From Antennarius striatus (Eukaryota; Chordata; Actinopteri; Lophiiformes; Antennariidae): a stretch of 64,000 nucleotides of DNA. Position 1 is the stretch's first letter. Each line of letters opens with the position of its first letter. The position numbers were made by a program, and so were the translations under genes. The stretch is from contig NC_090782.1 of assembly GCF_040054535.1 (NCBI RefSeq), positions 25,037,501 to 25,101,500 on the forward strand, given 5' to 3'. Under the pieces are notes generated by a model. The model was not told where the DNA came from. It saw only the letters and a program-made list of their open reading frames with translations, and ran no database searches. Below are positions 26,811 to 64,000 of this stretch, piece after piece.

Positions 26811-26911
26811 CGGCTAACGCGGCTTCCAGCCCGGCTAACGCGGCTTCCAGCCCGGCTAACGCGGCTTCCAGCCCGGCTAACGCGGCTTCCAGCCCGGCTA
26901 ACGCGGCTAGC
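26811..26911. repeat. 21-bp tandem repeat in the phlpp2 5' leader
   Basis: The unit CGGCTAACGCGGCTTCCAGC plus C occurs nearly five times just upstream of the phlpp2 start codon. It is GC-rich and lies in the CpG-rich promoter and leader. Confidence 0.92.
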
Positions 26912-26949
26912 GCTCACCTGCTAGCCGCCTGACGACGTTCGCTAACGGG

Positions 26950-28615
26950 ATGGAAAGTGTGAGGGAAACCGAGCCGGGATCAACTTTCCCGGCACCGCAG
27001 GGGGCTCCCGATCCGGGGAGCGACGCTAATCCCGCCAAACCGAGCGGATTACCACCGCTGTCCGCGGGAAGGAGACCCTCCATCGGGGAGGATGACGGCG
27101 GCGGCGGCGGCGCGGAGGCGAAGCTGTTCGCGAAGGGGCTGGCGGCCACCTCCCTCCTCCAGATCGCGATCCGGAACGGGATCTACCAGAACCAGGCCGC
27201 CAACGCGCTCGGCGGCGCGGCCAAACACCTCAACATGCCTCCGGTGAAAACGCCCGGCAGCGGCGGCAGCGGCGGCGCCGCTTCCGTCAACTCTCTGCTG
27301 GGCAGGAGGCGGCAGCGGCACCGGCGGAACCGCTCGCTCGGGGCGCCGCCGACCAGCAGCGGCTCCCCCGGCGCAGCCGACGCGGCCACCGCCGCCGCCC
27401 CGTCCCCGCTGAGCACCCTCAGCCTGGACCGGAGGACGTTCCTCCGGCAGAGGCAGACCAAGCAGCTCCAGCCGGCCGACAGGAGCTGGGTGAGGGCGGA
27501 CCCCCGGAGGGGCTGCGTCCACGTCCACGACTGGCTCACGCCCTCCTACCCGCGGCCGGTGCTCTGCTCGGTGGACACCACCGCCGGAGAGGTGGCCGCC
27601 CGGCTGGAGGGGGGCAAAGCAGGGGCGGTGCTGAGGATTACCGGCCGGACCCCCACGTCAGCTGATGTTAACGGTGGTTGTGACGTCATGAGCGGGCAGG
27701 TGGATGACGCGGGGAGTCTCGGTGACGCCGCGGGTTTCGGGACACCCGGGGTGCTGGATGACCACACGGCCAGCAACTCGTCCTCGGAGGTCTACCTGAG
27801 CGACATCGGGACGGACCCGGACCCGGGGTTGGGGGGCTGGTGCTCCGGGTCGGACCTGGAGAGCAGCACCTGTGAGGACGCGGAGCTCCACGACTCCCTC
27901 AGCGACGGTCCGGGCCCGGCCACGGACTCCTCGGTGCCGAGCCCGACCTGCGACAGCGCCCCCGAGGATCCGGACCCGTTCGAGAGCTCCTCGGATGAAG
28001 TGGACCCCGCCCCGGTGGATCCCCACGTGCTGATCGAGCCTCCCCTTAAATGCCCCAGCAGCTCCCAGACCCGCCCCCTCACCAGCCTGGCCCCCACCCA
28101 GCCTGACCCGGAGCCCCCTGGAGGGAGCGGGGGCAGCGGCTGGCCGCGGCCGGGCGCAGCGCGTCCCGGACCGGCTCTGTTCGTGCAGCTGCACGGGGGG
28201 GCCGTGCGCCGCCTGGAGGACGACGAGCGGCCGCTGCGGATCCTCAACGAGTACCTGAGCAACCTGGGGTACGAGGACCCCCGGAGGGTCCAGGGGGAGG
28301 GCATGAACCCGGAAGTGGGCTGCCTCATCCGGTTCTACTTCGGTGAGAACTTTTATTATTATTAATAAATGAGGTGTCAGCTGATTATTATAGCTGCTAA
28401 CAGCTGGTTACGTCATCCTAAAAGAGTCTGATTATTTAAAAACTGTAATGATGGAATCAGTAAATCAATATCGTGATGTCACACACAAGCCCCGCCCCCT
28501 AAAACCGGCTGTTTCTCATAGAATCAAACATTTAACTGTAGGAGGAAAGATGGGGGGGGGGGGGGGGTTCAGTCAAACAGAGGCGATCAGGAGCAGCTGC
28601 AGCTTCATCATGTTT

Positions 28616-28651
<36 letters not shown>

Positions 28652-30245
28652 TCAGTGTGGAACTCAGATTTCACCTCCTCAGTGTTTTGGAGGTCGCTGC
28701 TTCGCTCCGCAAGGTGAGTGAGTCATGTGACGCAGGTGTGAGGAGCCGGGGCTGATGGGAAACGTGTCCCTGTGTCCTCATTGACCCCGCCCTCTCCCCC
28801 CCTCCCCCCCACACACAGGGAAGCCCCGGAGCGCGGGCGGGGCCGAGCGCGCGCAGCTGTCCGGCGTGTTCAACGTGAGGAAGGGGAAGCTGGCGCTGCC
28901 GGCGAGCCGCTGGTCGCGGCGTCAGGTGACGCTGAGCGGCACCTGCCTCATCGTGTCGTCGGCGAGACACGCCCACACCGGAAAGATGCACATCCTGCCT
29001 CTGATTGGCGGAAAGGTGCCGGAAACGCTCGCCTCACGCTTCTGTTCCTTTCGTAACATCGGGATGCTTCAGAGAAGCTGAACGCACTTCCTGCTTCCTG
29101 TTGCAGGTGGAGGAAGTGCGGCGCCACGCCCACTGCCTCGCCTTCAGCTCGGCGGCGCCTCAGAGCCGCGCCTACTTCGTCAGCTACGAGTCGTACGGCG
29201 AGCGTCTGCGCTGGCAGAGGACCGCCTCCAAGGTGGCGTCCCAGCGAATCAGCTCGGCCGACCTGTCCTGCTGCAGCCTGGAGGAAGTGCCGACTCAGCT
29301 GTTCTACAGCCACGACCTCACGCACCTCAACCTGAAGAGCAACTTCCTGTCGCCGCAGAGGGGCGTCGCCGCCCTCTCCAGGTGCGTGGCGTCGCCGCGG
29401 GGACCGGAACCCTTCTTTAAACGCGCCGTTTGTAACCCCGCCCCCCTTGCCCCGCCCCCACAGGTTCTGCCACCTGCGGAGCCTCAGTCTGTCCAGTAAC
29501 GGCCTGACGGCGTTCCCGCCGGCGCTGTGTCACATGGCGTCGCTGACGGAGCTCAACCTGTCCGGGAACCGGCTGTCGGCGCTGCCCGCGGACGTAGGAG
29601 GCATGAGCAGGTGAGGGGGCGGGGCCGGGGCGGGGCCAGGTAGCGCTCCAGACCGACGCCGACGGGACTCCAAGCTGACTCGGCCAATCACAGCCTTCCT
29701 GTTGTCTCTCTCTCCGTGATGACCTTTGACCCCCAGCCTGCAGACGCTCCTCCTGGACGGGAACGCCCTCAGCGACCTGCCGGTGGAGCTTGGCTCCCTG
29801 GGGGGGCTGACCTACCTGGGCCTCTCCTTCAACCGCTTCACCTGCGTCCCCCCCGTCCTGGAGAGGCTGGGGGGGCTGGAGAGGCTCTGTCTGGCGGGGA
29901 ACCAGCTGGGGGGGCTGGAGCTCGCCGCCCTGCAGTGGCTCCCCGTCCGCCACGTCGACCTGCGGTGAGCTAACGGCGTTAGCGCGCGTGAGCTTCAACA
30001 TTTATTCGTCGGTCTTTAACTGACTCCGCCCCCCCCAGGCTGAACCGGCTCCGGGCCGTGACGGGGGGGCCCCCGGAGCAGCTAATCCACGTGACCCAGC
30101 TGGACCTGAGGGACGGGGGGCTGCAGGAGCTGGACGTCCGGCCGCTGCGCCGGCTGGAGCTGCTGCGCTGCGACCGCAACGCCCTGCGCCGCCTGCAGGT
30201 GGCGGCGGAGGCGCTGAGGGGGCTCCACGCCGCTCACAACGGTAC

Positions 30246-30303
<58 letters not shown>

Positions 30304-33300
30304 CCTACTGACCTGCGACCCGTCTGCAGAGCTGGAGCAGCTGGAGGTCGACCCGGCGCCGGAGCTCCTGAGCGTTCTGGACGTTTCCTGGTAGGACGCC
30401 GCTCCCGAAAGCGTCGCCGCCCCGTTTGGGTGGAGTGGGCGGGGCCTCAGCTGTGTGTGTCGTTACAGGAACCGGCTGGGGGGCGTTCCTGAATGGGTGT
30501 GCGACTGCCCCCGCTTGGAGGTCCTGGACGTCAGCCACAACGGCGTGACGGAGCTGCCCGTACGGTGAGCGCCGCGACACGCCCACACAGGCTCCGCCTT
30601 CTTTTCCACCCCCGTTTCATTTCTACCCCCCCCCCCCCAATCAGGCTGATGTCCGGCGGGGGCCTCAGGAAGCTGCTGGCGGGGTGGAACCAGCTGGGGC
30701 GGCTGGCGGAGCGGCTGGAGCGCCCCCTGCTGGAGGTTCTGGACCTGCAGCACAACCGGCTGACGGAGCTCCCCCCCGACCTGTTCATCAAGGCTCAGAG
30801 GTGGGCCCCGCCCCCCCATGCCCCGCCCCTCCCCCTCCCCCCGTCCGCTCCGGTCTCATCGCCGTCGTCTCTCCCGTCGCAGCTTGAGGTACCTGAACGT
30901 CTCGGCCAATCGGCTGGAGAGCCTCCCGGCCGCCAGCCAATCGGAGGACGGCTCCAGCAGCCTGGAGGAGCTGTACGCCACCAACAACAGGCTGACGGAG
31001 AGGTGTGTCCCCCCGCTGACGGGCCACACCCGCCTCAGGGTGCTGCACCTGGCCTTCAACCAGCTGCAGAGCTTCACCTGCAGGTACGTCTGATGATGTC
31101 ACCTGATCCGGGGCGGGGCGTACACTCTGACCCCGCCTACCGCCCCCTCCCCCACAGTAAATTGGCGCGGCTGGAGCAGCTGGAGGAGCTGGACCTGAGC
31201 GGGAACCGGCTGCGGGCGGTGCCCCCCGCCCTCCTGTGCTGCCGCCGGCTGCACTCGCTCGCCGCCCACTCCAACGCCATTGACTCCGCCCCCGAGGTGC
31301 TGCAGCTGCCCGACATCAAGGTGGGCGTCGCCCGGGACCAACGCCACGCCCTCTCCGCCCCCTCCCTTCTTAACCCCGCCTCTCTGCCCCCCTCCCTCTC
31401 CCCCCCGCTAGTGCGTCGACTTGAGCTGCAACGAGCTGACGGGGGTCACCCTCCCCGAGACGCCGCCGCCGAAGCTGCAGGAGTTCGACCTGACGGGGAA
31501 CCAACGCCTGAACCTGGACCACCGCAGCCTGGAGCTGCTCAAGTACGACACGCTAAGAACACGCTAGAGACACGCTAGAGACACGCTAAGAACACGCTGG
31601 AGACACGCTGGAGACACACTAAGAACACGCTAGAGACACGCTAAGAACACGCTGGAGACACGCTAAGAACACGCTGGAGACACGCTAAGAACACACTAGA
31701 GACACGCTAAGAACACGCTAGAGACACGCTAAGAACACGCTAGAGACACGCTAAGAACACGCTAGAGACACGCTAAGAACACGCTGGAGACACGCTAAGA
31801 ACACGCTGGAGACACACTAAGAACACGCTACAGACACACTAAGAACACGCTAGAGACACGCTAAGAACACGCTAGAGACATGCTGACCTCAGCGGTGACT
31901 CCGCCTCTCTCTCCTCAGTAACATCCGGTGCCTCCGGGTCGACCCGTCGCCGTCGGCGCCCTGCGTGAACGAGCGTCACGGGACGCCGGCGGTCTGGAGA
32001 CACGGCTACACGGAGGCGTCGGGCGTCCGGAACAAGTCGGTTTTCTTCCTCCTCCTCGTTGTTCTGGTAAACTCCCAGCATGCCTTGCGGTAACCCCTCC
32101 CCCCCGCCCTCAGGCTGTGCGTGGCGGCGCTGGCGCTGGACGGCTTCTGCGGGATCCGCGAGGCGCTGTACGGCGTGTTCGACGGCGACCGCAACGTGGA
32201 GGTGCCCTACCTGCTGCAATGCACCATGGGAGATGTGCTCGCCGAGGAGCTGCAGCGGGGGGAGGGGGACCACATGACCAACACCTTCCTCACCACGCAC
32301 AGGTAAGCCAACGCCGCGCCCACAACGGCGCTCCCGCTCAGACTCCGCCCCCCCTTGAGGCTCCGGCGTCGCTCTCCAACAGGAAGCTGGGCACCGCCGG
32401 TCAGAGGATGGGCGGGGCCGCGGCGCTGTGTCACATCCGACACGCCCCTTTGGCGCCCGGCGGCTGCTTCACGCTAACGGCCGCTAACGTGGGGCGCTGC
32501 GGCGCCGTCCTGTGCCGCGACGGCAGGGCGGTGCCGCTGTCCCACACCCACACCGTCCAGGAGGAGGCGGAGTACCAGAGGGTCCGGCGCCACAACGCCA
32601 TCATCACCGAGGTACCGGCGCACGCCAGGCTACGCTAGGTGACGTTAGCATAGCATTAGCCGCTAACGGTTTCCCCCTCCCATCAGGATAACAAAGTCAG
32701 CGGCGTGACGGACGCCACCCGGATGATGGGGTACGCCTTCCTGTGTCCGTCCGTCACCCCCAAGCCCCACGTCGCCACGGTGACGCTCACGCCTCAAGAC
32801 GAGTTCTTCATCCTGGGCAGCAGGGGATTGTGGGAGATGCTGTCCCCCGGGGAGGCGGTGGAGGCGGTGCGGAACGTTCCGGACGCTCTGGCGGCCGCCA
32901 AGAAGCTGGTGACGCTGGCGCAGGGGGGGGGCTGCGGCGACAGCCTGAGCGCCGTGGTGGTGCAGCTGAGCATCACCGAGGACTGCTGCGGCTTCTGCGA
33001 GCCGCCGCCGCCGCCCCCCAGCCCGGGTCTGTCCGGCACCCACCCGTACGAAGGGGGCGGGGCCGTGCTGCCGCCGCCGCCCTCCTCGGGGACGGCGAGC
33101 GAGCTGAGCGAGTTCAGCACATCGGAGATGAGCAGCGAGGTGGGGTCCACCGCGTCCTCCGACGAGCCGCCGCTCCCGGTCGAGCCCCCGCCCCCACCGC
33201 CGCACCCCCTCCAGCAGGGGCGGGCTGGCGCTCGGAGGCCCGCCCCCGGAGGCGGGGCCTTGCTGAGGCAGCTGTCCGGCGCTCTGTCGGAGGACGAGGA

Positions 33301-33679
33301 GCCCATCGCCGGCGTCTTCTCCAACGGCAGCCGCGTGGAGGTGGAGGCCGACGTCCACTGCCTGCGTCGCCACGACGACGACCCCTCCCCCGGCCTCGAC
33401 AGGGACGCCCCCCCGACGACGTCGGGGACTCTGGGGCGCCGCGGCCGCGCCAACGGCTCCGTGGCGTGCCGGGGGCGGAACCAGGACCTCATCGAGGAGG
33501 CGGGCGACGCCCCCGTTAGGAAACAGGGGGGGGGCTACTTCAACGCGCCCCCCCAGCCCGACCCCGACGACCAGCTGATCATCCCGCCGGAGCTGGAGGA
33601 GGAGGTCCGGCAGATCATCCAGCAGCAGCAGGAGCTGCACGCCTTCCAGAAGCCCCCGTGCTTCTTCACCCCCCTGTGA
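26950..33679 (+). CDS. phlpp2: PH domain and leucine-rich repeat protein phosphatase 2, 16 exons, complete
   Basis: Ser/Thr phosphatase of the PP2C family that removes the hydrophobic-motif phosphate of Akt and PKC. Exons: 26950-28342, 28819-29015, 29107-29381, 29464-29610, 29737-29964, 30039-30241, 30330-30390, 30469-30564, 30645-30800, 30883-31083, 31158-31320, 31412-31542, 31919-32035, 32114-32302, 32383-32611, 32687-33679. All are GT-AG and together 4779 nt, giving 1592 residues. Order of domains: disordered GC-rich N-terminus, RA-like part (end of exon 1), PH domain (about 477-580), leucine-rich repeats (about 590-1085), PP2C domain (about 1110-1365, [20 protein letters not shown]; later [10 protein letters not shown]), and a low-complexity tail ending in TPL, a PDZ-binding-like terminus. 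The tail wording ([35 protein letters not shown]) and the adjacent marveld3 favour PHLPP2 over PHLPP1. The N-terminal extension makes it longer than human PHLPP2 (about 1320 residues), nearer to PHLPP1. The reading frame of exon 1 is very GC-rich. Confidence 0.94.
28617..28648. repeat. (CA)n microsatellite in phlpp2 intron 1
   Basis: About 15 CA units. Confidence 0.95.
30247..30301. repeat. (GT)n microsatellite in phlpp2 intron 6
   Basis: About 27 GT units occupying most of the 88-bp intron between exons 30039-30241 and 30330-30390. Confidence 0.97.
31543..31890. repeat. 11-bp-based minisatellite filling phlpp2 intron 12
   Basis: Units ACACGCTAAGA, ACACGCTAGAG and ACACGCTGGAG alternate over about 340 bp between exons 31412-31542 and 31919-32035. 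The array starts almost directly after the donor site, so most of the intron is repeat. Confidence 0.95.
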
Positions 33680-41245: not shown

Positions 41246-41425
41246 GCTTTTCACTGCGTGTTTGTGGGAGGACGTGATGTCGGGAGGGGATCCAGCGAAC
41301 CGGACCCGTGATGCAGTTGATCCGGCTGCCCAACTCGTGACCGACGCGAGGCTTGCGCTCCTGCCCGGTTCGGTGAAGCTTCGTCGGGCTGCAGATCCCA
41401 GAGTCCCCGCCGGAACCTGAGCAGC

Positions 41426-44400
41426 ATGGCGGTCCCGTCCGGCTCCCCGTGTCCGGTGATGGAACAGCACCTCCGGGACCGGGCCCCCCCGCTCCTCACC
41501 GACCTGTACCAGTTCACCATGGCCTACGCGTACTGGCGGGCCGGGCGGCACCGGGACACCGCCCGGTTCGAGCTCTTCTTCCGGGACAACCCGTTCCGCG
41601 GCGGCTTCACGGTGTTCGCGGGGCTCCACGACTGTCTGGTGTTCCTGCGTAACTTCCGCTTCACGCACGAAGGCGAGTTCCGAGGAAAGTCACCCTGGTG
41701 TTGGGCAGACCGACCGGGTGCTGCTTGGATTAATAATCCATAATCTGGTGGTTATTGTGAGATTAAGACATTCCCGTGGGTCCAGGGTGGACTAAATGAA
41801 AGCAGTCTTTGTGTTGGTCAATGTCACAGGAGAGGAAACTCCACAGAACCAGAGGGTTGTTTGTTGGGGGGGGGGACTTGTTGGCTTGGGCCATTACCAA
41901 GACGGCAGACAAGTTTGTTCTCTAAAGAAGAGATTTTAACATTTCCCCCAAAATGGAACAATTTCCACGTAACTCTACTGAACACGGGACTGACAAAGTC
42001 TCTGTGTCTCGCCCTGTCTGTCTCTCTGTCTGTCTCTCTGTCTGTCTCTGTCTCTCTCTCTCTCTGAACTTGGTGTCTTCATCTTTACATTTGCCAGAAT
42101 TCTCCGGAAATCAACCTAAAAAAAGTTTGAATTTATTTTTTTGACGTCTACCTGCTAATCACTTTGGTGCCGCGTTGGCCAATGCTAACTCTGTTCAAGG
42201 TTAAACATCACATCTAAATATTACCCAACTGTCCACATTGGCTAACCTTAGCTAATCTTTTTGGTGAAACATTTTCAGATGTAAACATAACCAACCAGGA
42301 AGTGTCTCATAGTAAAGATAAGACTCGATTAAATCTGAATTTATACGGTCATTGACCTGGATAGTCTACCTTAACCTCAGAGAAAGTTTTATTTTGGAGG
42401 TTTTATTTTCCTCATCATGAAGTACTTTAATTGGTTATAAGACAGGGACCTGGACATTTTGGGAAGGGGGGCCCAATTCAGGACTTCTTTTCTAACTGTC
42501 CCTGTCCTGATGACGGGGGCCCGGTTGCTGGTCGTCCTGAGTCCATTCCGTTGTGAATCTAACATGTTCTTTGGATCTAGATGTGGAGTTCCTGCGTTCT
42601 GTGCTGCCCCCCGCCACCGACCCTGCCTTCTTCCAGTACCTACGAGACCTGGACTGCTCCACCGTTGAGCTGCATGCCGTCCCAGATGGCACAGTGGTGT
42701 TTGCCAGGGTGAGCTGTAGGTCAGAGGTCACACAGGGGATCAGGAAGGCATCAGAGGGAGTAACCGCTGACAACATCTGCAGGTGCCTCTGATGGAGGTG
42801 ACTGGTCCGTTGGCTGTGGTCCAGCTGCTGGAGACCGGGTTGCTGTGTCTAGTCAACTACGCCAGGTAACCGTTGATACTAGAACATGTGGTCTCAACAG
42901 GGTCCTGAACCCTGACCTGAGGGTACTGGATCTGTTCTAACCAAACATTTGGCCAAAGTTATATATATCAACCCCCCAAGACAACAAGTAGGGTTTTAGC
43001 CTTTACTGCTAGAACGCGCCTAAAACACACCGTGTTTTTAGTTTAGTTTCAGCCTCAGAGGTTGGTACGTTCACATGGAGAATAAAATCCTGGGATGACT
43101 AGCATAAAGCTACCGCAGAAGGCTTAACGGGTCACAGAACATGTAGCAGCCGTTTGTTTGCTGTTGTTCCGCGTCCAACAGTCATAGTCACATTACATTT
43201 ACAGCCAATGTCAGACCTGAACAAGTCTGTCAGATAAACTGGAGGTCATTGCTTTCCCCTGGAGGTAAGTCAAGTATTTTAGCCATGTCCTAGTCTGAAC
43301 CCCCTGTCAGTGGCAATAATTCACTCTACAGGTAGGGTTAACTACAGGTTAATAAAATTAGTCATTAATGCATTATTGTAATTTAATAGAGTATACTCAC
43401 TTTTTGTTATCTGGTCACAGGAAAATTGAAATGAATTTTGAGTTGAAATTGCAATTAAGATAAGATATAGTTTATTGATCCCAAACTGAGAAATTTACAA
43501 TTTCTTGAAGCGTTAAAGAAAATCTTGGATCCAAATGAAAACGACTTCCTTGCTGAGGTAAATGGAGAGAAGAACATTCTTCAAGTCCAATACAGTATTT
43601 TAGAAGTGAAAAAGAAAACAAAAGGTATCCAATCTGACCCCCAGGAACCCATCTTATTGAACAGACCTTCCCCACCCAAGAATACAAAAACCCGTATAAA
43701 AGACCACCAGACTCCAGACAAAGTGACTCCTGTGCTTTCAGTCTGGTGTGCACCAACGCGGCTCGCTTCCGACTGGCGGCCGGACCCAGGAGGAAGCTGC
43801 TGGAGATGGGCCTCAGGAGGGCCCAAGGCCCGGATGGAGGTCTGACCGCTTCCCGATACACGTACATCGGAGGTGACTGATGAGTAGCTCTTCTCCTTTC
43901 TTATGGATGTCGTTACCTTCATTTATGCTGAAGGAACACGAACGAGCGAATCTTAACCCAGGATCTGCTTTCTAGGGTTCGACCTCACCAGTAACGTTCG
44001 AGCCGGATTCCTGTTTGGCATCCCTGTCACGGGAACCATGGCACACTCTTACATCACTTCCTTTACCTCTCTGGAGGAGGTCCAGCCACATGTGAGAGCT
44101 ACTTCTGTCCTCCATCACTGCTATCATTTTTGTACATGTCCTACATTAACAGCAGATCGTCCAAAGTGTTTGAACCGAACTGAGGGGCAAAAATCAGGAA
44201 GTGTTGCTTTACAGCTGGTCAGAAAAATCTATCCTGGTTTTGTGTTTCACTCAGACCCTGATGCCACAGAACGGCGACAGTGAGCCGGTCGACCTTATCG
44301 CGTTGGCGAAGAGCTGGTTGAGTCGCATTTCTGAGCTTCTGGAAGCCAATCCCAGGAAGATCCATGAGGGCGAGTTGGCCGCCTTTTTGTCCTACGCCAT

Positions 44401-52786: not shown

Positions 52787-53404
52787 ATGATGAAGCTGAT
52801 CCTTTCTCTGGATCTCGCCTGGACTCTCTCTGGCTCAGGTAACTGCAACTCATCTTTGAAGCCTGATTCATTCACCAGTATTGATCAGTTGATTATCAGT
52901 TATTTGTAACCATCAGCTGATTTTCAATCATGTTGTTCTCTTTGCTACAGTTGGAGCTTTTCATTGTCAAGCCTGAAATACTACTAATTGTTCCACCACG
53001 CAAACAATGAACTGCACTTCAGAGACAATGTGTTTCACATCCTCCCTTAACAGTCAGTATTTCCTTATCATAACTCTTCTGTGAATTCTGCATGTTTGTC
53101 TTCTTTCCACCAGCAGCATGTAACTCTGCTTTGGTTTAATAGACATTGCTGGTAGGATCTCAACAGTGATCAATGTGAAGGGATGTGGATTGACCTCTAT
53201 GCCCAACCACAGGCTCTCAGAACTTTTCAATCAACATTGGTAATGCCAGTACAGGTATAAATCTTGAATGCTGCAACACAACCAACACTGGACCTTTTTC
53301 TGGTGTGTATGGATGAGTAGAAATAGTTAATTCTCATCAGTGTTCTATGTTCCTCAGACAAATGACTTTCTGTTCTGTTTCAGTTCCTATGATTGAGGCA
53401 AATA
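52787..53404 (+). pseudogene. Broken Ly6/uPAR gene copy, 5' part only
   Basis: Near-identical first exon (52787-52838, signal peptide MMKLILSLDLAWTLSGS), a second exon (52951-53052) and third exon (53143-53302) aligned to the intact gene at 60818-62473, with matching intron sequences. In exon 2 a TGA at 52974-52976 replaces the second domain cysteine codon. Exon 3 is 160 nt against 168 nt and shifts frame before its CC motif. The homology stops a few bases into exon 4, at about 53404, where retroviral sequence begins. No stalk or GPI signal remains. Upstream sequence to about 52210 also matches the flank of the intact copy, so this is one half of a segmental duplication. Confidence 0.88.
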
Positions 53405-59378: not shown

Positions 59379-60144
59379 CTAGGCAGTGGTTTTGGCCTCA
59401 AACATGATGCCATCCAAGGCAATTACATCACCGGGCACTACATCCCTAACAGTTTTTGGGCCGAGCAAAATTACCTCAGTTGTACCAGAATTTAGATGGA
59501 AAAAGTAATTGGTCATCCAATCTTTGATCTCTTTGATACATGCCTGTAATTTGCAGATTATTTGCATGTATAAGATAAACAATATTGGACCAAGAACTGA
59601 GCCTTGAGGAACTCCATCGCTAACTGTAATGGACTGGGAGGTGTCGTTATTAACGTTAACGAACTGGGAACAGTCAGTTAAATAGGATTTAAACCACATC
59701 ATTGCTGATCCCTTAAAAGCAATTGTTTTGTGCGGTCGTGCCAAAAGAATATTGTGGTCAATTGTGTCAAAAGCCTCACTGAGGTCCAGGAGAACCAAAA
59801 TAGAAACAAATCCTCTGTCTGAGGCAGTTAAAGGTCGTTGCTAACCTTGACAAGTGCCGTTTCCGTACTATGATGTTCCCCAAAAACTCAAATAAGCTGT
59901 TGGATTTAAGGAAATCACATAACTGATTAGCGACTATTTTCTCCAAGATCTTCGATAAAAATGGGAGATTTGATATGGGTCGATCATTATTTAGAAAAGC
60001 AGGGTCCAGGTTAGGTTTTTTGATAAGTGGCTTGATTCTAGCTACTTTAAAGGACTGTGGTACATATCCAGTTGAAAATGCTTCGCTCAGTACGACACTG
60101 TTGGCTCTGACATACACAAACTTCGTAGCATCGTAAGCCTTCAT
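59379..60144 (-). mobile_element. L2-like LINE reverse transcriptase fragment
   Basis: Minus-strand translation gives SFKVARIKPLIKKPNLDPAF and NLPFLSKILEKIVANQL (60144-59800). After a frameshift it gives LDLSEAFDTIDHNILLARPH and VPQGSVLGPILFILYM (59800-59560), then KEIKDWMTNYFFHLNSGTTE. A deletion joins the palm domain to a downstream part, losing the YADD box. It lies within the block that interrupts the duplicated Ly6 flank. Confidence 0.78.
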
Positions 60145-60817: not shown

Positions 60818-62473
60818 ATGATGAAGCTGATCCTTTCTCTGACTCTCGCCTGGACTCTCTCCGGCTCAGGTAACTGCAACTCATCTTTGAAGCCTGATTC
60901 ATTCACCAGTATTGATCAGTTAATTATCAGTTATCTGTATGCGTCAGCTGTTTGCCAGTAATGTTCTCTTTGCTGTAGTTGGAGCTCTTCAGTGTCTATC
61001 CTGCAATAGTGCATCGTGTCCCATCACACAAACTTGTTCTCCAAATATGACATGTGTAACACTGACCATTATCGGTAAGTGTTTCTTCATCAGAACTCTT
61101 CTGTGAATTCAGCATGTTTGTCTTCTTTCCACCAGCAGTATCTAACTCTCTTTTGGTTTTTTAGAGACAATAGGTATGAACACAGCAGTGACAAATTTAA
61201 AGGGATGTACAACGTCCAACCTTTGTCCAAGCCCAGGGATTCAGCAGTTTTCATTCAACAGTGGTGCTATCCGTTTTGACAGATTTCATGATTGCTGCGA
61301 CACAAACAACTGTAACTCTGGAGATTTTGCTGGTGAGTATGGATGAATAGAAATAATTTATTCTCATCAGTGTTCTATGTTCCTCAGATAAAAGACTTTC
61401 TGTTCTGTTCCAGTTGCTATGATTCAAACAATGAACAACCTTGTATGTTGTCTTGATCCTTTTTGCACTGGACAACTCCAGTGTAGGGGAATACAGGACC
61501 ACTGCTTTCAAAGATTGGGTGAGACTTTATGAGAACATTAGTTGTAAATGTAGATTCTTATGCACTCATCTCCCATTTTTATATAAGATCCTGCTGTGTT
61601 CACATTAGTGTCTGAAGTGATTCTTTTCTAGACTGTCTTTACCAGCATCCTTTAACTTGGTGGCAAATGTATTAACATAAAAATCAACCCAACACACCAC
61701 CTGGCTCGTTGTAGAACAAATTTTTATTCCATAGACTGCATTGTCTAATTATTCATGTGTGTTTTATGTTTACGTGTTCCTGGGAATATAATTATGAGTC
61801 ATTACTGTTTGAGATCAACAGTAGCTTGTCCAGTGACACTGATTTTTCACTTTCAGTACCCACTTCACTCTTTGGCTGCACCTCTGGCAACTTGTGTCCT
61901 CCTGGCATGTCTGTCATGTTGACCGGTAATACAACCTGTTGTAACTCCAGTCTGTGTAATGGGACTCCAATCATTTTTCTTCCAAACATGACAAGTACAA
62001 ACGTGACGGGTCCAAACATGACGAGTACAAACATGACGAGTACAAACATGACGAGTCCTAACATGACGAGTTCAAACATGACGGCTCAAAACATGACGAG
62101 TTCAAACATGACGGCTCAAAACATGACGAGTCCAAACATGACGAGTACAAACATGACGAGTCCTAACATGACGAGTACAAACATGACGAGTCCAAACACG
62201 ACGAGTTCAAACACGACGGCTCCAAACATGACGGCTCCAAACATGACGGCTCAAAACATGACGAGTCCAAACATGACGAGTTCAAACATGACGAGTCCAA
62301 ACATGACAAGTCCAAACATGACGAGTCTAAACATGACGGCTACAAACATGACGGCTACAAACATGACGGCTACAAACATGACGGCTACAAACACGACGAC
62401 TCCTTCCAGCAATGCTTGCTCCATCAGTCTGGGTTTGATCCCTCTGCTACTGGGACTCTTTCATCTCTTCTAG
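60818..62473 (+). CDS. Ly6/uPAR (LU) family surface protein with N-glycosylation-repeat stalk
   Basis: Five exons: 60818-60869, 60979-61074, 61165-61332, 61414-61518, 61857-62473. All are GT-AG, phase 1 and in frame, giving 345 residues. Exon 1 encodes a signal peptide (MMKLILSLTLAWTLSGS). Exons 2-3 form one LU three-finger domain, starting LQCLSCN and closing with the family CCDTNNCN motif. Exon 4 plus the start of exon 5 form a second LU domain closing with CCNSSLCNG. Then come 28 pentapeptides of type N-M-T-x-x (61985-62404), every one a sequon, and a hydrophobic C-terminus (ISLGLIPLLLGLFHLF) typical of a GPI-anchor signal. The layout resembles two-domain fish PLAUR/Ly6-like proteins; ligand and role are unknown. 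An ancestral or duplicated copy lies at 52787-53404. The second domain has an irregular start (LVCCLDPFC), so its disulphide pattern may deviate or an exon may be missing. Confidence 0.85.
61985..62404 (+). repeat. 15-bp coding minisatellite, 28 units, encoding N-glycosylation sequons
   Basis: The unit is close to AACATGACGAGTCCA and is repeated in register 28 times inside the last exon of the Ly6/uPAR gene. Because the unit is a multiple of three, copy-number changes keep frame. Each unit gives Asn-(Met/Val/Thr)-Thr plus two residues drawn from Ser, Thr, Pro, Ala, Gln, Gly and Leu. The X position of the sequon is never Pro, so all 28 are acceptable sequons by the N-X-S/T rule. Variation is concentrated in the two spacer codons while the sequon codons are kept, which suggests selection on the sequon or recent homogenisation. 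Confidence 0.95.
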
Positions 62474-63119: not shown

Positions 63120-64000
63120 GCATATTCATCACTCGCAAAAGTTTCAGATCATCAAACCAATGTTAATATCACACAGAGACAACTCAAGGAAATGCAAAAT
63201 GCAGTTTGTAAATGATAATTCAATTGATTAAGATACAAAAAAAAATCCCAACCTATCTGGTTGAATGTGAAAAACTAATTGCCCCCTGAACCTAGTCGCA
63301 TATTGTGCCACCTTTTGAGGCAATAACTGATATCAAGTGTTTCTGATAATTGGTGTTAAGTCTTCTTTGCACTCTTCTTATTTTAGGGTTTTCTAGCATG
63401 AACTGCCCGTTTGAGGTCACACCACAGCATCTCAATTGGATTTAAATCTGGACTTGGACTTGGCCACCCTAACACCTTCATTTTGTTGGGTTTTTTTGAG
63501 CCATTCAGAGGTGGACTTGCTGGTGTGTTTCTGATAGTTTCTTGCTGCATGATCCAAGAGCGCCTGATCATCAAGATGCTTTTTGGCAAATACGAGACAT
63601 GCCTTTGTGTTCTTTTGTGACAGCAGTGGTTTTCGCCTGGGAACTCTCCCATGGATGCCATTTTTGGCCAGTGTCTTTCCTAGAGTGGAGCCGCGAACAC
63701 TGACCTTAACTGAGGCCAGCAAGGTCTGCACTTCTTTGGATCGTTTTCTAGGTTCTTGTGTGACCTTCAAGATGAGTTGTCGTCGCACTGTTGGAGTAAT
63801 CTTCGTTGGTCGACCGCTCCTGGGATGGTTTGCCACTGCTCCCAGTTTTCTCCATTTGTGGATAATGGCTCTGACACTGGGTCGCTGGAGCCTCACAGCT
63901 TTGGAAATGGCTCTGTAACCTTTTCCAGACTGATAGATTTCGATCATTTTTTTTCTCATTTCTTCTTGAATTTCTTTGGATCGTGGCATGATGCGTTTGT
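63120..64000 (-). mobile_element. Tc1-like DNA transposon, internally deleted, continues beyond right edge
   Basis: The minus strand starts at ATG 63989 with a Tc1 transposase N-terminus: paired-like HTH (IYQSGKGYRAISKAVRLQRP), linker and second HTH (RSGRPTKITPTVRRQL). After KKHLDDQALLDHAA the catalytic middle is missing. The C-terminal SPDLNPIEMLWCDLKRAVH follows in another frame near 63440. The non-coding end near 63145-63300 (TTTCAGATCATCAAACCAAT, ACTAATTGCCCCCTGAACCT) matches the inverted-repeat region of fish Tc1 elements. The loss of the first two acidic residues of the DDE triad makes it inactive. Confidence 0.88.

Follow-up and report, generated by a model that had tools for sequence, protein, structure and literature searches.

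The stalks of surface proteins are usually regarded as mucin-type, and C4.4A carries a Ser/Thr/Pro-rich stretch before its anchor. Hyosophorins are cortical-alveolus glycoproteins that are not known to have an LU domain or a GPI anchor, and LYPD8 is not known to have a tandem sequon array. The Ly6/uPAR (LU) domain is defined as 60–90 residues with 10 cysteines and an Asn after the tenth, and C4.4A/LYPD3 and Haldisin/LYPD5 are described as combining two LU domains with a GPI anchor (PMC6600238). LYPD8 is reported as a GPI-anchored, highly N-glycosylated LU protein, and PNGase F shifts the human protein and lowered the function of mouse Lypd8 (PMC5725809). For flounder hyosophorin, an N-linked penta-antennary glycan in a tandem repeat has been described (PMC3528131). 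Stalked LU proteins are already known; the new part of the gene that we describe here is a stalk made of a sequon array. The gene lies in a 64,000-nt stretch of the striated frogfish (Antennarius striatus) genome (contig C7, NC_090782.1, positions 25037501-25101500), hereafter the window.

Gene model and repeat array of the window gene

The gene, here termed A1, was modelled on the forward strand as five exons of 52, 96, 168, 105 and 617 nt with canonical GT/AG borders and phase-1 introns throughout, and encodes 345 residues uninterrupted by a stop codon. Exon 1 (60818..60869) starts with MMKLILSLTLAWTLSGS, encodes a signal peptide recognized by eye and ends at a GT donor; exons 2 (60979..61074) and 3 (61165..61332) encode the first and second halves of LU domain 1; exon 4 (61414..61518) encodes the first half of LU domain 2; and exon 5 (61857..62473) supplies the end of that domain (to approximately 61960), the repeat array, a GPI-type tail and the stop codon. 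The two exons per domain and the phase-1 introns agree with the gene structure of the LU family. Ten cysteines span residues 23-99 in domain 1 and residues 117-174 in domain 2, with an Asn after each tenth Cys, as in the LU domain definition; at approximately 59 residues, domain 2 lies at the lower edge of the defined size. An earlier note on this DNA had proposed five exons and two LU domains, a prediction that fits the sequence. The Pfam UPAR_LY6 profile matched domain 1 (residues 20-101, E 3.1e-5) with 24.8 bits, exactly the cut-off, and domain 2 had no Pfam match. Among the paralogs described below, A2 was without a UPAR_LY6 match and B2 scored below the UPAR_LY6 cut-off but above that of Toxin_TOLIP.

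Positions 61985..62404 (+; residues 184-323) hold 28 tandem 15-bp units, all 28 of which encode N-x-T. The coordinates and the 28-fold count given in the earlier note proved exact, and its central claim, that a coding 15-bp minisatellite gives an LU protein a run of 28 sequons, is supported at the level of the predicted gene. Tandem Repeats Finder reported a period of 15, 28.2 copies, 86% matches and 0% indels, and the units are repeated but not identical to one another. The x residue is Met in 24 units, Thr in three and Val in one; Pro is absent at x and directly after the Thr in every unit, and the sequons are all Thr-type, with none of the N-x-S type. Thr-type sequons are reported to be the better acceptors for oligosaccharyltransferase (OST) (PMC4750078). 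In 10,000 residue shuffles of the array, sequons at spacing five ran to 5 at most, compared with the actual 28, a result that shows only a non-random residue order, as expected of any tandem repeat. That a 15-bp repeat can be read through without a stop says little on its own, because a second forward frame as well as reverse frames are also open over parts of it; the N-x-T frame is credible because it links the two-LU ectodomain to the GPI-type tail, and likewise in six stalked paralogs. This tail (62405..62473, SSNACSISLGLIPLLLGLFHLF followed by the stop) was recognized by eye as a putative GPI-anchor signal, with small residues and then a hydrophobic stretch, and is retained in the same six paralogs.

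Paralogs, divergence and origin of the stalk

In a search of the genome (548,383,777 bases in 42 contigs), the array DNA matched nine places: on C7, the window, two places downstream (at approximately 8 and 32 kb) and, on the other strand, five lying upstream by approximately 0.75 Mb; the ninth is on C23. With these nine places and the further members found by tblastn, a lone-gene reading was rejected; judged by its sequence matches, the window gene is a member of a family arranged in two clusters on one chromosome. Tiles around the matches yielded nine complete models, A1 (the window gene), A2, A4, A5, B1, B2, B3, B6 and B7. When units were counted in the best register with at least 9 of 15 bases like the reference unit, the array was present in seven of the nine (6-28 units) and absent from A5 and B1. 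Sequons occupied 28 of 28 units in A1, 16 of 21 in A2, 11 of 12 in A4, 7 of 9 in B2, 7 of 10 in B3, 4 of 7 in B6 and 3 of 6 in B7, with whole-tail counts of 8 in B2 and 6 in B6. Array length and Asn/Thr content thus differ between members, which is a comparison of paralogs and not of alleles. The frame through the LU domains, the array and the GPI-type tail is intact in all seven stalked models, and 20 cysteines are present in eight of the nine models (B3 has 18); the B6 model lacks the first ATG and has ATG as its second codon.

Several further copies were left out of the nine models. Decayed B4 contains 23 units of TTTSP-like sequence, of which two read NTTSP (sequons in 2 of 23), has no GPI-type tail downstream, and in exons 2-3 has lost cysteines or the exons were not found (the script returned no exon 3). 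A7 and A8 are exon 5 tails only, stalkless and without sequons. W0, a decayed LU paralog within the window (52787..53349, +), was found by tblastn and by reading of the frames; it matches the family over exons 1-3 and has no exon 4-5 continuation in the following 1.5 kb. The remaining copies left out are fragments on C7 near 25114296, 25127929 and 25129238 and B-cluster fragments near 24310782 and 24336307. The genome-wide UPAR_LY6 search found one other place only and missed the window cluster because the profile reads exon by exon, and is therefore uninformative on family size. Two protein searches (8 hits in one, the best 120 of 185 in the other) contained no A. striatus LU protein; since another A. 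striatus protein is in the database, these genes may be absent from the public annotation or merged in it.

The window also contains forward-strand exons of a PHLPP-type phosphatase (PHLPP RA domain and PP2C) at 26911-33679 and an N-terminal exon of nicotinate phosphoribosyltransferase at 41321-41740 (+). In human, NAPRT is likewise located close to the Ly6 cluster, on 8q24.3, and the window locus may therefore be an old Ly6 neighbourhood. A reverse-transcriptase-like fragment, identified by eye, lies at 59379-59840 (−), and a Tc1/Sleeping-Beauty-type transposase frame at 63432-63998 (−), approximately 1 kb past the gene. Beside the B cluster there is a long degenerate 12/15-bp repeat of the AGTAGTACCAGT type (B coordinates 68925-69509; C7 approximately 24373925-24374509).

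Among the nine paralogs, mean JC distances were 0.064 for exon 1, 0.47 for exon 2, 0.41 for exon 3 and 0.26 for exon 4, and 0.07, 0.21 and 0.16 for the introns. The divergence of LU exons 2 and 3 is two to three times that of the adjacent introns, with dS raised too. In 36 of 36 paralog pairs, which share genes and are not independent, dN exceeded the intron distance; relative to intron distance, the medians were 2.69 for dN (dN/Ki) and 2.75 for dS (dS/Ki), and pairwise dN/dS of the LU domains ranged from 0.68 to 1.31. Because dS is raised like dN, the fast exons may in part be due to gene conversion of the introns rather than to selection, and the pattern as a whole may reflect diversifying selection or intron gene conversion. 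The 20 cysteines are kept in eight of the nine models despite this divergence of exons 2 and 3 above the introns. Exons that evolve faster than introns are also found in snake three-finger toxins.

In a minimum spanning tree of the unit types of the window array, none of the 16 changes disrupts a sequon, against 4.9 expected (P 0.0028; 0.0018-0.0059 over six rate settings), in a test that was made post hoc on the most striking of seven runs and assumes independent changes; restricted to the 10 distinct departures from the consensus, the strictest count, it gave P 0.033. The same test revealed no sequon constraint in the paralog arrays, with sequon-breaking changes amounting to 5 of 17 in A2 (5.0 expected), 1 of 8 in A4, 2 of 16 in B2, 6 of 22 in B3 and 3 of 18 in B4, and pooling of A1, A2 and A4 gave 6 of 30 (P 0.17). 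Recent homogenisation could mimic the constraint in the window array. Identity within the arrays of A1, A2 and A4 is slightly higher than between them (0.84-0.86 versus 0.81-0.83).

The units of B4 read ACC-ACG-ACA-AGT-CCA and those of the window AAC-ATG-ACG-AGT-CCA, and ACC and AAC units stand side by side in B6 and B7. The ancestral stalk would have resembled the mucin-like, Thr-rich stalks of several fish relatives; a change of ACC to AAC (T to N) in a TTTSP-like unit would have given NTTSP, a CpG transition of ACG to ATG would have given NMTSP, and unequal exchange would then have multiplied the sequon unit. ACC to AAC together with ACG to ATG is the simplest path because Thr-rich stalks are found elsewhere, the direction not being proven within B4. 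Unit comparison suggests that ACC-to-AAC changes are the likely means by which a mucin-like stalk came to bear sequons. We advance more tentatively, and with some doubt, a switch of glycan type, in which ACC-to-AAC changes, one base per unit, would have replaced the mucin-like TTTSP stalk by one carrying N-glycans, and the frogfish lineage would now keep a family of hypervariable LU heads on stalks ranging from none, through Thr-type or mixed, to 28 of 28 sites, as tunable surface decoys.

Proposed function and alternative explanations

We propose that A1 encodes a two-LU, likely GPI-anchored surface protein whose stalk of 28 N-x-T sites would be decorated with many N-glycans and would lift a fast-evolving LU head off the epithelium, a proposal whose chances we consider evenly balanced. 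OST would modify many of the array sites, and the N-glycans would make the stalk an extended, bulky, protease-resistant spacer that raises the head above the epithelial surface. Barrier proteins of the LYPD8 type bind flagella in an N-glycan-dependent manner and are expressed in epithelium. By analogy, the product is a probable GPI-anchored protein with dense N-glycosylation, putatively epithelial, that would work like LYPD8.

The stalk might instead be mainly of the O-glycosylated mucin type, with Asn tolerated and few sequons used. Each unit of the window array has a Thr, position four is Ser or Thr in 18 of 28 units and position five is Pro, Ser or Thr in 24 of 28; Thr-rich stalks occur in fish relatives, the units of decayed B4 are of the TTTSP type, and one OST complex is reported to skip closely spaced and far C-terminal sites (PMC4750078). 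However, the skipping described in that source concerns closely spaced N-x-S sites, and Asn and Thr are retained in 28 of 28 units with every sequon Thr-type; a mainly O-glycosylated stalk is, in our judgement, unlikely. A smaller chance falls to a neutral coding minisatellite, in which slippage or unequal exchange would have expanded and homogenised the array and the sequons would be a functionless by-product. The paralog arrays do lose sequons at approximately the unconstrained rate (A2 and B3 above), and the slight excess of identity within the arrays of A1, A2 and A4 is in keeping with homogenisation, but none of the 16 changes in the longest array breaks a sequon and the frame and tail are intact wherever there is a stalk.

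Decayed copies (W0 and B4) and fragments in the clusters, as well as the failure of the two protein searches to return an annotated protein, would fit a gene that is not expressed or is being lost from a birth-and-death cluster; with the intact frame, 20 cysteines and canonical splice sites of A1, and a 60-bp 5′ flank that is conserved among the paralogs (mean JC 0.128), we think such a fate very unlikely. It is barely credible that the array forms a rod of the pentapeptide-repeat type (quadrilateral beta-helix) and not an extended glycan-clad chain. The Pfam Pentapeptide profile did match the window array above its cut-off (residues 184-216, 24.5 bits against 20.2), as it did a second A. striatus repeat protein, P0009 (see below), and the best of the AlphaFold models made from the array-and-tail sequence alone, a low-confidence one, has many short beta strands. 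However, mean pLDDT was 60.9 for this model and 37-49 for the other four, its best match in the PDB had an E of 6.4, and none of the seven matches listed was a pentapeptide-repeat protein; we claim no fold for the array. The rod-like shape and many N-glycans proposed in the earlier note are predictions, and with the strands in this model even an unstructured rod is conjectural. Pentapeptide repeats follow the rule A(D/N)LxX, which the Thr-rich sister arrays would misfit, and Pro precedes Asn in 11 of the 28 units of the window array.

If the N-glycan reading holds and the array sites are used, the family is a natural experiment on the glycosylation of sequons placed every five residues and on the evolution of glycan type: a single gene family spans no stalk, Thr-type or mixed arrays and a full 28 of 28 N-x-T, with the steps visible as single-base changes. 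The predicted stalk gene is directly testable with published data, as a study of the striated frogfish reports RNA sequencing of 13 tissues, including skin and gill (PMC11192929).

Fish relatives, other sequon arrays and known systems

We collected 124 fish relatives, 8 from one protein search and 116 among the best 120 of 185 matches from another, several of which rest on incomplete or questionable gene models. In this set, no run exceeded 2 sequons, whatever the spacing between 3 and 15 residues. A 30-residue stretch with at least 70% Ser/Thr/Pro occurred in 14 of the 124 and a sequon array in none, which bears out the contrast with Ser/Thr-rich stalks drawn in the earlier note; Seriola P0005 has a single NTTT directly before the tail. 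The best sequence matches include Micropterus P0001 (E 9.4e-24, 42% identity). Modelled with 34 others, P0001 reached a mean pLDDT of 80.5, and its model, which bears on the three-finger fold of LU domains for a fish relative and not for the window ectodomain, matches uPAR (1ywh, E 7.4e-9) and C4.4A (E 3.1e-8). A search for a solved-structure relative of the ectodomain gave glutamate mutase (E 0.067) as its sole match, which was rejected as meaningless. Domain 2 starts with adjacent cysteines (CC) in all nine frogfish models (window exon 61414-61518; eight rows aligned, B6 read separately), whereas P0001 has C-x-x-C plus four more residues at this point.

In a tree of 46 sequences, comprising the nine frogfish proteins and 37 of the 124 relatives with no other anglerfish among them, the frogfish proteins formed one clade (support 100/100). 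The earliest branches of the A and B halves, weakly supported, are the stalkless A5 and B1, respectively; with stalkless members at the base of both clusters, any order of stalk gains and losses is tentative.

A protein search with the array only (120 of 251 matches listed) returned A. striatus P0009 with 16 consecutive sequons and, among the listed matches, shorter runs in unrelated sea urchin, sea anemone and archaeal-type proteins; sequon arrays per se are not unique. P0009 (C23:2629261-2629586), in which Pfam finds only the repeat (Pentapeptide, 33.8 bits) and which has no LU domain, seems to be a sequon array of this genome that is separate from the A1 family. Lytechinus P0011, from a sea urchin, has 10 sequons at spacing five and, read by eye, appears to be a multi-span membrane protein with no LU domain. 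Among the open-access papers listed by our literature searches, none described a sequon array on an LU protein, which does not in itself show that such a protein is absent from print.

P0009 and Lytechinus P0011 resemble the window protein in their sequon runs at spacing five, and differ from it in having no LU domain. The hyosophorins of fish eggs are alike by description only, in their glycan-bearing tandem peptide repeats. Fish LU proteins of the 'phospholipase A2 inhibitor / uPAR-like' kind, which give the best sequence matches (P0001 among them), share two LU domains and a GPI-type tail with the window protein, and some fish LU relatives, named for example 'integumentary mucin C.1-like', have Thr-rich stalks, but more than two regularly spaced sequons occur in 0 of 124. 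C4.4A and Haldisin are likewise proteins of two LU domains with a GPI anchor, the latter predicted for the frogfish protein. They are described as being without the 7–8 disulfide in domain 1 (PMC6600238), whereas domain 1 of the window protein has all 10 cysteines and so does not share this feature of C4.4A and uPAR orthologues, and its stalk, in contrast to theirs, is a sequon array. LYPD8 of the mammalian colon is compared with it in function only: both are LU proteins, and the GPI anchor and N-glycans of LYPD8 have predicted counterparts in the frogfish protein.
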